Shown: positions 55,231-59,808 of the stretch, piece after piece | Numbering within the stretch: position 1 is the stretch's first letter | Layout: each line of letters begins with the position of its first letter | Source: Alphaproteobacteria bacterium | Lineage (GTDB): Bacteria > Pseudomonadota > Alphaproteobacteria > Rhizobiales > Aestuariivirgaceae | Length of the DNA stretch: 64,000 bases | Assembly (NCBI GenBank): GCA_028868695.1 | Contig: JAGWTZ010000003.1 | Coordinates: forward strand, 1 to 64,000 | Direction: 5' to 3' | Position numbers and translations under genes: made by a program | The notes under the pieces: model-generated | Seen by the model: the letters and a program-made list of their open reading frames with translations, nothing else | Told to the model about the DNA's origin: nothing | The model's database searches: none

Positions 55231-56439
55231 ATGACCTTCGACACATCCAAGCTTCTTTCCCCCCGCGCCAACGCCGCCGATGAAGGCGCCATCATCCGCA
55301 TGTCGCAAAAAACCCGCGACCTGCGCGCCAAGGGCCATGATGTGGTGGCCCTGACGATCGGTGAGCCGGATTTCGACACGCCCGAAAACATCCGCACCGC
55401 GGCCAAGGAGGCGATGGACAAGGGCTTCACCCACTATGCCCCCACCGCCGGCATGGCCGATTTGCGCGAGGCGGTGGCCGAAAAGCTGCGCGTGGAAAAC
55501 AAGCTGAATTATGAAGCCGCCAACATCGTGCTCGCCAATGGCGCCAAGCAGGCGGTGAACAATGCCGTCCTCTCGCTCATCGGCCCCGGCGATGAGGCGA
55601 TCATGATGGCGCCCTACTGGGTGTCCTATGAGGGCTCGGTCAAATTCGCCGGCGGCAAGGCAGTGATTGTCGAGAGCACAGTGGCCGAAAACTACAAGCC
55701 GCCCATCGCCCGCATCGCCGCAGCGATCACGCCCGCCACCAAGCTCATCTTCCTCAACTCACCGTCAAACCCCACTGGTGCGGTGTGGAGCAGGGCAGAG
55801 CTGGAGGCGCTGGCCGCCGAAGTGCGCAAGCACCCCAATCTCATGGTGCTGTCCGATGAGATCTATGAATACATCCTGTTCGAGGGCGAGATGGTGTCCT
55901 TCGGTTCATTGCCCGGCATGCTGGACCGCACCATCACGCTGAACGGCTTCTCCAAGGGCTTCGCCATGACGGGCTGGCGCCTTGGCTATGCGGCAGCGCC
56001 GCTGCCGGTTGCGGTCGCCATGGCCCGCATGCAAAGCATCATCTCGGCCGGCGCCAACCAGTTCGTGCAGAAGGCCGCGGTGGCCGCGCTCAAGGGCCCG
56101 CGCGATGAAGTGGAGCGGATGCGCAAGATCTACCAGCAGCGCCGCGACATGGTGCTCAGCGGCCTGCGCGCCATTCCCGGCGTGAAGATCGGCCCCATCC
56201 CCGGCACATTCTATGCCTTCCCTGATGTGTCCGCCTTCCTCGGCAAGCGCGTCGGCAACCATGTGATCGACACCTCGGACCAGCTCTGTGATTGGCTCCT
56301 GGAGCAGCACGGCGTCACCACTGTTCCGGGCTCTGCCTTCGGCGCGCCCAGTTCCATCCGCCTGTCCTTTGCCGCCAGCGAGGCGGACATTGAAAAAGCG
56401 CTGGCGAGGCTGAAGAAGGGCCTGGGCGAACTCGCCTGA
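55231..56439 (+). CDS. Class I aminotransferase (aspartate aminotransferase-like)
   Basis: A PLP-dependent aminotransferase of 402 residues, fold type I, subgroup I-gamma by appearance. Visible blocks: 'LTIGEPDFDTPENI', 'YAPTAGMADLREAV', 'LNSPSNPTGAVWS', 'LSDEIYEYILF', and the PLP-lysine block 'NGFSKGFAMTGWRLGY'. 'SIRLSFAASEADIEKAL' closes the C-terminal domain and holds the substrate-binding Arg. It is probably the aspartate/prephenate aminotransferase of this organism; substrate range cannot be read from the sequence. Confidence 0.92.
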   Translation: MTFDTSKLLSPRANAADEGAIIRMSQKTRDLRAKGHDVVALTIGEPDFDTPENIRTAAKEAMDKGFTHYAPTAGMADLREAVAEKLRVENKLNYEAANIVLANGAKQAVNNAVLSLIGPGDEAIMMAPYWVSYEGSVKFAGGKAVIVESTVAENYKPPIARIAAAITPATKLIFLNSPSNPTGAVWSRAELEALAAEVRKHPNLMVLSDEIYEYILFEGEMVSFGSLPGMLDRTITLNGFSKGFAMTGWRLGYAAAPLPVAVAMARMQSIISAGANQFVQKAAVAALKGPRDEVERMRKIYQQRRDMVLSGLRAIPGVKIGPIPGTFYAFPDVSAFLGKRVGNHVIDTSDQLCDWLLEQHGVTTVPGSAFGAPSSIRLSFAASEADIEKALARLKKGLGELA

Positions 56440-56582
56440 GGCGAATGCGGCGCGCCCCGCCGCGCCAAATCTGAATTCATTTGTTGTCGCCTGTTCCCGC
56501 GGGAACAGCGCAGCCGCCTGCGCTGCTTCATTCTCCAACACAGCCCGGGCAATCACGCACCGGACCAAGATTGGAGAACATC

Positions 56583-57020
56583 ATGCCGAAAGCCTTAACC
56601 GCCGCCACCCTTGCTGCCATCACGTTCAGCGCCATTGCGCTGCAGGCGGGCAGCGCGTCCGCCGCTCACCGCCTGTTGCTGGGGCCAATGAAGCAAGTCC
56701 CCATTGTGGGCCAGCAAGCCGCCAATAGCCAATCCAGCGTCTCCAAGGGAACGTCCTATCCCGTGGGCGGCATTCTGGGCGGTGATTCCAATATCGGCCA
56801 CTTGCCGCATGATCCCATTCCCCCCGCACCGGGGCAGGGCGGCTCTACAGGCGGCGGCCATCCGCATGGCCCTGGCCTTGGCGTCTCGCTTAGCGTCTAT
56901 GGCCCGTTTGATCCCAACCATTTCTGCCGCATCATCATCCACAAGCACAAGCCAGTGCGCGTTTGCTATCCGGTGCCCACAGATCAAGGCCCCTCCATGT
57001 CCTTCGGCCTGGGCTTCTAG
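56583..57020 (+). CDS. Exported glycine/proline-rich protein of unknown function
   Basis: A 145-residue secreted protein with a signal peptide ending 'GSASA'. The middle is Gly/Pro/His-rich ('PPAPGQGGSTGGGHPHGPG'), and the end carries two cysteines ('NHFCRIIIHKHKPVRVCYPVP'). GGAG precedes the ATG at 56583 by eight bases. I do not recognise a family. It stands alone and is followed by the palindromic repeat region. Confidence 0.62.
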   Translation: MPKALTAATLAAITFSAIALQAGSASAAHRLLLGPMKQVPIVGQQAANSQSSVSKGTSYPVGGILGGDSNIGHLPHDPIPPAPGQGGSTGGGHPHGPGLGVSLSVYGPFDPNHFCRIIIHKHKPVRVCYPVPTDQGPSMSFGLGF

Positions 57021-57047: not shown

Positions 57048-57432
57048 GCCCTTCTCCCAAGGGGAGAAGGGCAGGGGGTTTGGTTCCCGTCATTCCCTTC
57101 TGCTCCCCGGAGGGGGAGCTGCCGCGCAAGCGGCTGAGGGGCGATGGGTTCCGCACCTCAACTGCCACCCTCATCTCCCCTCCGGCGCGTGCCGCGCCAC
57201 CTCCCCCTCAGGGGAGGATGGGGGAGCCACTCCCCACTCCCGTCATTCCGTGCAAGCGCCGGGCGAAGCCCGCCTATCATTGCAGGGCAATGATAGGTCT
57301 GCGCGCGACACGGAATCCCGCTTGGCCACCGGCTCTGCCTCTCCCTCTCCATGGGCGGGCTTGACCCGCCCATCCAGCGGGAGCCGGACATTCAGGCTGG
57401 ACCGGCGGGTCAGGCCCGCCGATGGAGAGGGG
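57048..57432. repeat. Mosaic of palindromic repeats
   Basis: At least five hairpins lie side by side with no coding frame: GCCCTTCTCCC/GGGAGAAGGGC (57048-57072), CCTATCATTGC/GCAATGATAGG (57273-57297, perfect), ATGGGCGGG/CCCGCCCAT (57351-57373), GGCGGG/CCCGCC near 57404-57420, and an outer pair CTCTCCAT/ATGGAGAG enclosing the last two. CGTCATTCCGTG at 57241 is related to the repeat at 39421. This fits a cluster of REP/BIME-type elements. Confidence 0.65.
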
Positions 57433-57484
57433 AAAGAGGAGGGTTGGAGCAGAATTAACTTGCTTTTATTCCTAGTCCGTGCTA

Positions 57485-57745
57485 GCTGCCTTCCGCTCCC
57501 TTGCACTGGGGTCCGGTTCATGACGGTGAACCCGGATGCAAGGGAGTGGCAGGCCTGCTGGAAGGGATAACGTATCCCAACTCCACCGGGAGCCAGGTTG
57601 AACTTCCTCGGGCACTAAGACCCGGGCTGCTATGGCAAGGCCTCTGGTGTCCCCCATCAGGCTTCCTCCGAGTAGGAAGTGAGATGGATCACCTCGGGTG
57701 GAGGGAATCTCCCATCAAGATGGGAGAGGCCCGATGAAACCACAG
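57485..57745 (+). ncRNA. Candidate structured non-coding RNA, unassigned
   Basis: A protein-free segment with dense, nested base pairing on the + strand. Stems seen: 57493-57505 with 57537-57549 (13 pairs, one G-U), continued inside by TCCGGTTCA with TGAACC-CGGA; GGGATA/TATCCC at 57564-57578; CGGG/CCCG at 57609-57624; CTTCCT/AGGAAG at 57662-57679; TCGGG/CCCGA (57694-57698 with 57730-57734) enclosing CTCCCAT/ATGGGAG (57709-57726, loop CAAG). A further hairpin near 57795-57813 followed by ACTTTTC could end the transcript. I cannot match it to tmRNA, 6S, SRP RNA or a known riboswitch. An orphan OMEGA/HEARO-type RNA or an intron remnant are possibilities. Strand is inferred. Confidence 0.5.
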
Positions 57746-57973
57746 ACCCATAGTGGCGGACTGACAGTTCACCTGATGCTCAATTCCTGCCGGCGCGTGG
57801 GGCAACCCAACGCACTTTTCAGGCCACTTAAAACACAGTGGCACCCGCGTCGGATTATCCCACGCGTCTCCCTTCTACTCTCTGCCCCGCACGCCACGGG
57901 GCAACCAAGGGAAAAGCCGCGCCCGGTTCCCAGGCGCAACCCTTCATTCACCATCCCCGCGCCCGCTCAAAAC

Positions 57974-58003
57974 TTGACAAATCGCCCCTCGCATGCGTTT
58001 TAG
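57974..58003 (+). promoter_or_regulatory. Candidate promoter of aspS
   Basis: A consensus TTGACA at 57974 is followed after 18 bases by TTTTAG, about 25 bases before the aspS start codon. The ribosome site AAGGA lies between. Confidence 0.55.
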
Positions 58004-58026: not shown

Positions 58027-59808
58027 ATGACCCACGCCTATCGCACCCACACCTGCGGCCAATTGCGCGACAGCGACGCAAACGGCACCACCCGGCTCTC
58101 CGGCTGGGTGCACCGCGTGCGCGACCATGGCGGATTGCTGTTCATCGACCTGCGTGACCATTATGGCATGACCCAGGTGGTGGCAGACCCCGACAGCCCC
58201 TGCTTCAAGGTGGCCGAGAAAGTCCGTTCCGAATGGGTGATCCGCATTGACGGCAAGGTGCGCCTGCGCCCCGCCGGCACCGAGAACAAGGACATGCCCA
58301 CCGGCCTCGTCGAAATCTATGCCACTGAGATCGAAGTGCTCGGCCAGGCAGCGGAACTGCCGCTGCCGGTGTTCGGTGAGCCGGATTACCCCGAGGACAC
58401 GCGCCTCAAATACCGCTTCCTCGACCTGCGCCGCGAAACCCTGCACAAGAACATCATGACGCGCACCAAGGTGGTCAGCCACCTGCGCCGCAAGATGAAC
58501 GACATTGGCTTCAACGAGTTCTCGACGCCCATCCTCACGGCCTCCTCGCCTGAAGGTGCCCGCGACTTCCTCGTGCCCTCGCGCATCCACCCCGGCAAGT
58601 TCTTCGCCCTGCCGCAGGCGCCGCAGCAATACAAGCAGCTCCTGATGGTGGCGGGCTTCGACCGCTATTTCCAGATCGCCCCTTGCTTCCGCGATGAAGA
58701 CCCGCGCGCCGACCGCCTGCCGGGCGAGTTCTACCAGCTCGATCTTGAAATGAGTTTTGTGACCCAGGACGACTTGCTCTCCACCATGCAGCCTGTGGTG
58801 CTGGAGCTGTTCAACAGCTTCAAGGGCGCCAAGACCGTGCGCGCCGATGTGCCGCGCATTCCCTATGATGTCGCCGTGCGCAAATATGGCAGCGACAAGC
58901 CCGACCTGCGCAACCCCATCGAGATGCAGGCCGTCACCGAACATTTTGCGGGCTCCGGCTTCAAGGTGTTTGCCGGCATGATCGCCAATGACCCGAAGGT
59001 TGAGGTCTGGGCCATTCCAGCCCCCAAGGGCGGCAGCCGCGCTTTCTGCGACCGCATGAACGGTTGGGCGCAGAAGGAAGGCCAGCCGGGCCTCGGCTAT
59101 GTCTTCTGGCGTGAAGGTGAAGAGGGCGGGGCAGGGCCGATTGCCAAGAACATCGGGCCAGAGCGCACCGAAGCCATCCGCAAGCAGATGGGCCTTGGCG
59201 TGGGCGATGCCTGCTTCTTCGTCGCCGGCCGGCCGGAGAAGTTCTACAAATTCGCCGGCGATGCCCGCACCATCGTGGGCAAGGAGCTGAACCTCACAAA
59301 CGAAAACGAATTCGCCTTCTGCTGGATCGTCGATTTCCCCTTCTATGAGTGGAGCGAGGAAGACAAGAAGGTGGACTTCGGCCACAACCCCTTCTCCATG
59401 CCGCAAGGCGGCTTGAAGGCTCTGGAAAGCCAGGACCCGCTCACCATCAAGGCCTTCCAGTATGATATGGTCTGCAACGGCTATGAAATCGCCTCCGGCT
59501 CCATCCGCAACCATTCGCCCGAAACCATGGTGAAGGCCTTTGAGATCACTGGCGTCACCAAGGCTGAGGTGGAGGAACGTTTTGGCGGCATGTACCGCGC
59601 CTTCCAGTTCGGTGCACCACCCCATGGCGGCATGGCCTTTGGCGTGGACCGGCTGGTGATGCTCATCTGCGGCGTCACCAACCTGCGTGAAATCACGCTG
59701 TTCCCCATGAACCAGCAGGCGCAGGATCTGCTCATGGGCGCGCCCTCGGATGCAACGCCCAAGCAGTTGCGCGAATTGCACATCCGCCTCAATCTTCCGG
59801 AGAAGTGA
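58027..59808 (+). CDS. aspS: Aspartyl-tRNA synthetase
   Basis: Charges tRNA-Asp (and in many Alphaproteobacteria also tRNA-Asn). The 593-residue bacterial-type enzyme has an N-terminal OB anticodon domain ('[21 protein letters not shown]'-like, residues 24-43), class II motif 2 '[21 protein letters not shown]'-like around 225-245, a bacterial GAD insertion, and motif 3 '[15 protein letters not shown]'. The ATG at 58027 has AAGGA six bases upstream; the open frame continues upstream to 57838 but carries no conserved sequence. A terminator hairpin follows. Confidence 0.97.

Follow-up and report, generated by a model that had tools for sequence, protein, structure and literature searches.

The gene-free DNA in front of aspS on contig JAGWTZ010000003.1 (assembly GCA_028868695.1, Aestuariivirgaceae) holds one of a set of related elements that are scattered through genomes, conserved in structure and ~430 nt long (more in some genomes), each with a promoter-like sequence at a fixed upstream distance. 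The window analysed here is the whole stretch of 64,000 nucleotides (positions 1 to 64,000 of the contig). Judged from sequence comparisons, each element is very probably the gene for a large noncoding RNA that is independent of aspS, and as an overall explanation we cautiously favour a family of trans-acting structural or regulatory RNA genes. At up to 25 copies per genome, a structured RNA of this size is among the more conspicuous bacterial RNA genes, yet it lies outside Rfam 15. The family is informative on the multiplication of large RNA genes in bacterial chromosomes, and its paralogues, a natural series that exchanges helices around a nearly fixed core, are useful for RNA structure work. 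One named carrier, Aestuariivirga litoralis KCTC 52945, has two copies, making expression, fold and removal testable.

Extent and fold of the element

The whole unit in the window comprises the promoter and the structured RNA (57459–57917). A sequence-only reading of this DNA had proposed a structured RNA at 57485–57820; the element is larger than that interval, beginning with the promoter at ~57459 and ending at ~57917, some 100 nt further on. The parts of the unit are as follows.

57459–57487, + strand: predicted promoter, recognised by its motifs, with a predicted start site
57459–57464, 57469–57474 and 57481–57487, + strand: promoter motifs, −35-like CTTGCT, spacer box TTCCTA and −10-like GCTAGCT
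57488–57917, + strand: structured RNA, ~430 nt, both ends approximate
57495–57547, + strand: 5′ hairpin domain, stem 57495–57504/57538–57547 and hairpin 57511–57521/57526–57537 with a GACG loop
57548–57791, + strand: central multibranch domain, closing helix GGCAGG 57548–57553/CCTGCC 57786–57791
57554–57589, + strand: hairpin with an ACG loop, GGGATA-ACG-TATCCC (57564–57578) inside
57607–57626, + strand: hairpin with an ACTAA loop, invariant in the window genome, ACnTAnGA-like in relatives
57703–57732, + strand: variable arm, a CTCCCAT/ATGGGAG hairpin (57709–57726) in the window copy, different hairpins in other copies
57792–57868, + strand: 3′ domain, long helix 57792–57813/57847–57868 around hairpin 57823–57828/57837–57842
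57870–57911, + strand: terminal element, CCCTT/AAGGG around hairpin 57883–57889/57897–57903

The + strand of 57470–57825 folds to −166.5 kcal/mol, compared with −138.4 ± 5.0 for 100 shuffles (z = −5.6; none as good), whereas the − strand stands out less from its shuffles (z = −2.9; 1 of 100 as good). Among the stems picked out beforehand, the long stem with its hairpin, GGGATA-ACG-TATCCC and CTCCCAT/ATGGGAG are all in the fold, but the outer TCGGG/CCCGA pairing is absent: positions 57694–57698 and 57730–57734 have other partners or are unpaired in the minimum-energy fold. This pairing is also missing from the consensus of eight copies, and the arm is replaced by other hairpins elsewhere. Across the copies of one genome the variable arm (57703–57732) takes the form of hairpins that differ in sequence and length, as if modules had been swapped.

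No intrinsic terminator, a hairpin followed by a T run, was seen by eye at the RNA 3′ end. We dropped a possible terminal pseudoknot, in which the last loop would pair with the tail, because by eye it suits some copies and fails in others. We also rejected an anti-Shine–Dalgarno action of the C-rich tract, since the tract pairs with the tail, and a start codon in the 3′ tail, since the ATG is not kept among copies. A 78-aa ORF (57501–57737) could be dismissed as a conserved small gene because the aligned copies differ by single-base gaps; given these gaps, the element appears to be noncoding.

Compensatory changes among copies

The window genome provides eight whole copies, in which a core of ~120 nt is nearly fixed and the helices vary pairwise. 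Their RNAalifold consensus has 135 pairs in 18 helices, and 98.6% of the 1080 pair cells are standard. Changes on both sides affect 17 of the 135 pairs and 41 cells, as counted, here and in the second subgroup below, on the same alignments from which the structures were derived. When the pairing is slid by 1–3 columns, only 38–45% of cells remain paired and 0–5 pairs and 0–11 cells are changed on both sides; shuffled controls average 9.2 pairs and 12.8 cells, and none of 500 reaches the observed values. The number of further pair types in the eight copies is not above that in the shuffles. A second subgroup from other species (15 of the 20 copies of at least 430 nt, with five divergent or degenerate ones omitted) is 93.6% paired; both sides have changed in 29 pairs and 96 cells, compared with 6–11 pairs and 11–25 cells in its slid controls. 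Homologues with compensatory changes, named at the outset as the test of a structured RNA, are thus present in both alignments above the slid controls.

The changes are spread along the element. Among the eight whole copies they affect 6 of 10 pairs of helix 2 and 2 of 11 of helix 3 in the 5′ domain, and 3 of 6 pairs of helix 6, the ACG-loop hairpin, which occurs within one genome as GGGATA/TATCCC, GGTGTA/TGCACC and GCGCA-type versions. The GGCAGG/CCTGCC closing helix is invariant within the window genome and has one of six pairs changed on both sides in the second subgroup. For the inner hairpin of the 3′ domain the count is 1 of 6 pairs in the window genome; its counterpart in the second subgroup has 5 of 8. 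In the terminal element the inner hairpin shows such changes at 3 of 7 pairs, and 2 of the 5 outer pairs include unpaired cells.

Consensus energies also lie far below those of tree-simulated alignments. The 5′ domain reaches −42.1 against −7.7 ± 3.3 (lowest −14.2; 30 of 60 simulations folded) in an alignment of 90 of the 96 copies, from which five cut or degenerate copies and one duplicate or short copy were excluded. The 15 full copies of the second subgroup reach −208.7 against −119.3 ± 11.1 (lowest −140.4; 30 of 100 simulations folded). Tested singly over all 8175 column pairs of the 90-copy alignment, none of the 33 structure pairs shows significant covariation; when the correction covers the pairs of the structure alone, 4 of 33 in the 5′ domain (worked by hand) and 5 of 91 for the second subgroup fall below 0.05. 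In the G033 genome, one RNA copy (L185, oriented, from 2241 onward) passes from the first hairpin directly to the 3′ tail, an apparent internal deletion.

A conserved fold could in principle belong to single-stranded DNA, as in integron attC sites or IS200/IS605 ends, with no RNA made. We consider this improbable. The dispersal of the element and the palindromes beside it fit such a reading, as does the consensus of the eight copies from the window genome, which is slightly more stable on the − strand than on the + strand (−309.4 versus −304.0). Against it stand the conserved promoter at fixed spacing and a length of ~430 nt with long-range helices, which would go far beyond the needs of a recombination site. 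The wobble pairs argue the same way: on the + strand G–U cells outnumber A–C cells by 41 to 5 in eight copies and by 103 to 28 in 15, and in folds of the − strand the figures are 48 to 32 and 54 to 51, a tally limited to pairs that also occur in Watson–Crick versions and biased in that each structure is fitted to its own strand.

Relation to known RNA families

No family of Rfam 15 reaches its gathering score in 57485–57820 or at 20 member loci, and at loose E-values all that appears is chance matches below threshold, microRNA-like and others. The absence of a gathering match, together with the compensatory changes in homologues, bears out the proposal of an undescribed structured RNA, and the family appears to be new; the open-licence full-text literature yielded no recognised description of it. 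The sole gathering match in the window is the class A RNase P RNA (RF00010, 19985–20376, 295.4 bits), in agreement with the earlier remark that RNase P lies elsewhere. The window has no tRNA or tmRNA genes.

HEARO/OMEGA RNAs are structured and occur in many dispersed copies, some of them without a nearby protein gene. An orphan RNA of this type or a degenerate group II intron had been suggested for the element, which is alike in size, structure and dispersal, but a known mobile-element RNA of either kind is now very hard to sustain. Neither the HEARO model RF02033 nor the group II intron models match at gathering or loose E-values, and no IscB, reverse transcriptase or transposase is found among 30 neighbouring proteins (Pfam, E ≤ 0.001; 13 of the 30 without any family), a scan that covered the neighbours of a minority of the copies.

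GOLLD, ROOL and OLE, which we take to be included among the 4227 models of Rfam 15, likewise gave no covariance-model match when Rfam 15 was searched as a whole, and differ from this RNA in sequence and fold. In the relevant passages of PMC12286853 they appear as similarly large, elaborate noncoding RNAs of poorly understood role that were found by covariation, with GOLLD and ROOL placed in phages or prophages, often near tRNA genes. Unlike these two, the present RNA is chromosomal and interspersed, reaches 25 copies and has no viral match. It resembles all three as a large folded RNA and is unlike them in being interspersed and chromosomal.

Smaller elements offer partial parallels. Rhizobial RIME elements are palindromic intergenic repeats of the same order. 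So are Br-REP1 and Br-REP2 of Bradyrhizobium, described in passages of PMC5082802 as short palindromic repeats in 3′ UTRs, and the blocks beside the RNA look like them. The element itself differs from Br-REP in being a ~430-nt RNA with its own promoter-like sequence. The CcsR RNAs of Rhodobacter are encoded by several similar genes in one genome; they and LhrC of Listeria are short sRNAs. LhrC, according to the portion of PMC4132741 that concerns it, likewise has several similar RNA genes per genome. Compared with LhrC and CcsR, the present RNA is several times longer, has long-range helices and occurs in many more dispersed copies.

Copies and distribution

BLASTN places 57470–57825 at 11 positions in its own genome (82–100% identity); of 60 other genomes, 11 gave short matches. 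R1, a covariance model built from 32 sequences of the 5′ domain with the promoter, adds copies on contigs C3 and C96; C5 and the right end of C43 carry two cut copies. The whole copies lie on C7 (the window), C13, C88, C74, C49, C43, C26 and C96, and contig ends hold 5′ parts (C84, C10, C3) and 3′ parts (C34, C75). Counting the eight whole copies and the separate 5′ parts on C84, C10, C3 and C5, the draft genome has at least 12 loci. Weak matches in G051 (family f16) and, in the window genome, at C65 and C43:11129 were left aside. The sequence-only reading had set this region apart from simple repeat DNA like that before it; the element is itself an interspersed multicopy repeat.

Within the genus, R1 and an extended model, R2, match 27 of 37 genomes; in the other ten the RNA is either dispensable or too divergent. 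R1 has no match in 83 other genomes searched alongside the genus. R2 and R3, both extended with newly found copies, match 20 and 32, respectively, of 397 genomes sampled from the order (for R3, E ≤ 1e-4 and 9 of 141 genera), and of 385 genomes sampled from the class only G000 and G182 match; the counts from both large runs are lower bounds set by stricter filters. Both class-sample matches belong to the same order, so that this sample doubles as a specificity control. A more sensitive search of 19 genomes counted 25 copies in G295, 10 in G296, 8 in G342 and 7 in G176. The G295 genome is complete, with a single contig of 4.45 Mb, and five RNA subgroups can be distinguished in it by eye.

A pattern scan of named genome contigs returned 64 stretches, 26 of which are family members by eye, with promoter and downstream motifs; the remaining 38 were treated as chance. 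The 26 belong to Hyphomicrobiales, to unclassified alphaproteobacterial or pseudomonadotal assemblies and to A. litoralis KCTC 52945. Phage and plasmid records gave no BLASTN match and viral contigs nothing in three exact-pattern scans, and an origin from phages or plasmids was dismissed on these grounds.

Genomic setting

The window copy lies upstream of aspS in the same orientation, and a cis-regulatory leader or riboswitch of that gene has to be considered on account of this position.

57973–57978, + strand: CTTGAC of a likely separate aspS promoter, aspS starting at 58027

A leader function is extremely doubtful. The CTTGAC ascribed to aspS is downstream of the RNA, and a similar element is found upstream of aspS in relatives that have no RNA. 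The aspS loci of 29 relatives have no R1 match (E ≤ 1). In G027, G033 and G013 the aminotransferase gene, at 55231–56439 in the window, abuts aspS by eye, and the ~1.5 kb that separates the two genes in the window is absent. These observations indicate that the RNA arrived within added sequence and is not an aspS leader. Neighbouring genes also differ from copy to copy, many of them unrelated, with copies on either side and in either orientation. Some places are nevertheless common to several species: the position upstream of lepA in G011, G001, G018 and G029 (Pfam LepA for G029) and one locus in G206, G233 and G311.

A common neighbouring gene was sought and rejected, one AbiU, one HD-CE and one DUF3800 being judged no pattern. 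The first is an AbiU-like defence protein beside the copy in L249 (1232–2962; PADLOC E = 5.5e-125; Pfam AIPR); the copy in L254 has an HD-CE ATPase beside it, and that in L187 a weak DUF3800 match. The ORFs to the left of the RNA copies in L149 and L175 resemble, by eye, IS1595-type transposases. Between the aminotransferase and the repeat cluster of the window lies a 148-aa predicted secreted protein (56574–57020) without a Pfam family, which outside the window genome has weak matches in G033 only.

Promoter-like sequence

A CTTGAC sequence just upstream of the RNA is matched at five or more of six positions by 138 of 151 copies, and exactly by 120. TTCCTA follows within 18 nt of the −35 in 74 of the 138, compared with a mean of 1.7 and a maximum of 5 in 200 shuffles; the 151 rows are related by descent and so are not independent cases, and 2 of the 96 copies, cut at the promoter, were left out of the tally. 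In most or many of the same-genome copy pairs compared, similarity starts at the −35 or close to it, which is what selection on a unit that includes the promoter would predict.

Some promoters carry a further motif. GTTC-N7-GTTC, given in the pertinent part of PMC12700426 as the Caulobacter LexA box, occurs in 15 of the 151 promoter stretches, where shuffles average 0.145 and never exceed 2; in 12 of the 15 it sits at the spacer position between −35 and −10. The genomes concerned are G001, G009, G022, G024 and G295; the promoter of the window copy lacks the motif, whose sole occurrence in the window is elsewhere and at chance level. With 12 of 151 copies, a LexA box was discarded as a general feature of the family and kept for a subset. 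It is conceivable, though on present evidence unlikely, that this box makes the RNA damage-inducible in some species.

Composite units and the spread of copies

Directly before the RNA in the window is a cluster of palindromic repeats.

57094–57225, no strand assigned: palindromic block A, 33-nt arms
57227–57326, no strand assigned: palindromic block B
57343–57431 (searched as 57320–57440), no strand assigned: palindromic block C, 36-nt arms

The cluster, which the sequence-only reading had set aside, forms composite units with the RNA. Besides matching its own inverted arms, block C has four occurrences in the genome, all immediately ahead of an RNA copy (C7, C26, C84 and C96). Block B has 17 matches. 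Fifteen are no more than 800 bp from an RNA copy, two of these copies being cut by contig ends, and the remaining two begin within 40 bp of where a contig stops; block B also stands, inverted, to the right of the RNA in C13 and C96. Block A is less specific, with 8 of 16 matches within 800 bp of a copy. Between the window and C96, similarity extends over 57095–57917. The distant genome G295 is similar: ~500 bp of large palindromes, common to many copies, precede the RNA in the largest subfamily (15 of 25 copies), and the shared unit frequently stops near the RNA 3′ domain.

Patchiness and copy number make a selfish element the main rival to a trans-acting RNA: a non-autonomous mobile element of MITE or REP type, its structured RNA or DNA recognised by an enzyme encoded elsewhere, with no host function. 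The multicopy, patchy distribution fits this equally well, and so do the composite units with palindromes, the position of the window copy within ~1.5 kb missing from three relatives, and near-identical copies at different places (L304 and L305, 97.4% from −12 to +597; L142 and L143 of G029, 96.9%). We nevertheless regard it as rather unlikely. By eye, the RNA unit has no recognisable target duplication or terminal inverted repeat; the 30 neighbours include no transposase; the phage, plasmid and viral-contig searches gave no match; some places are shared between species; and a promoter with compensatory changes over the full length exceeds what a MITE needs. A trans-acting RNA is favoured because selection keeps the fold over its whole length and keeps the promoter. 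The two readings are not mutually exclusive.

If the RNA acts in trans, a rigid body would present conserved hairpin loops (GACG, ACG, ACnTAnGA-like and AATGNCA-like) that may bind a protein or another RNA molecule; recombination between copies would keep them alike within a genome, and new places would be gained by duplication of copies, often together with palindromic DNA. This scheme seems to us evenly poised. A more speculative and doubtful variant is a new class of chromosomal RNA-bearing element, controlled by a repressor of LexA type or another, perhaps self-pairing, which would spread with palindromic cassettes in Hyphomicrobiales and need its fold for persistence or dispersal. In its self-pairing form the loops would switch between ACGU and CCGG. 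At the ACG/CCGG hairpin, a self-complementary NCGN tetramer is present in 70 of 107 distinct hairpins, a count from a crude automatic pick with some hairpins mis-picked and no control.

The palindromic units of a few loci have unusual sequence of their own. Upstream of the RNA copies in L275 and L276, a long C run is followed by a long G run, which could be an assembly artefact, and the unit upstream of the copy in L277 contains about ten tandem AAGGGT-type hexamers.
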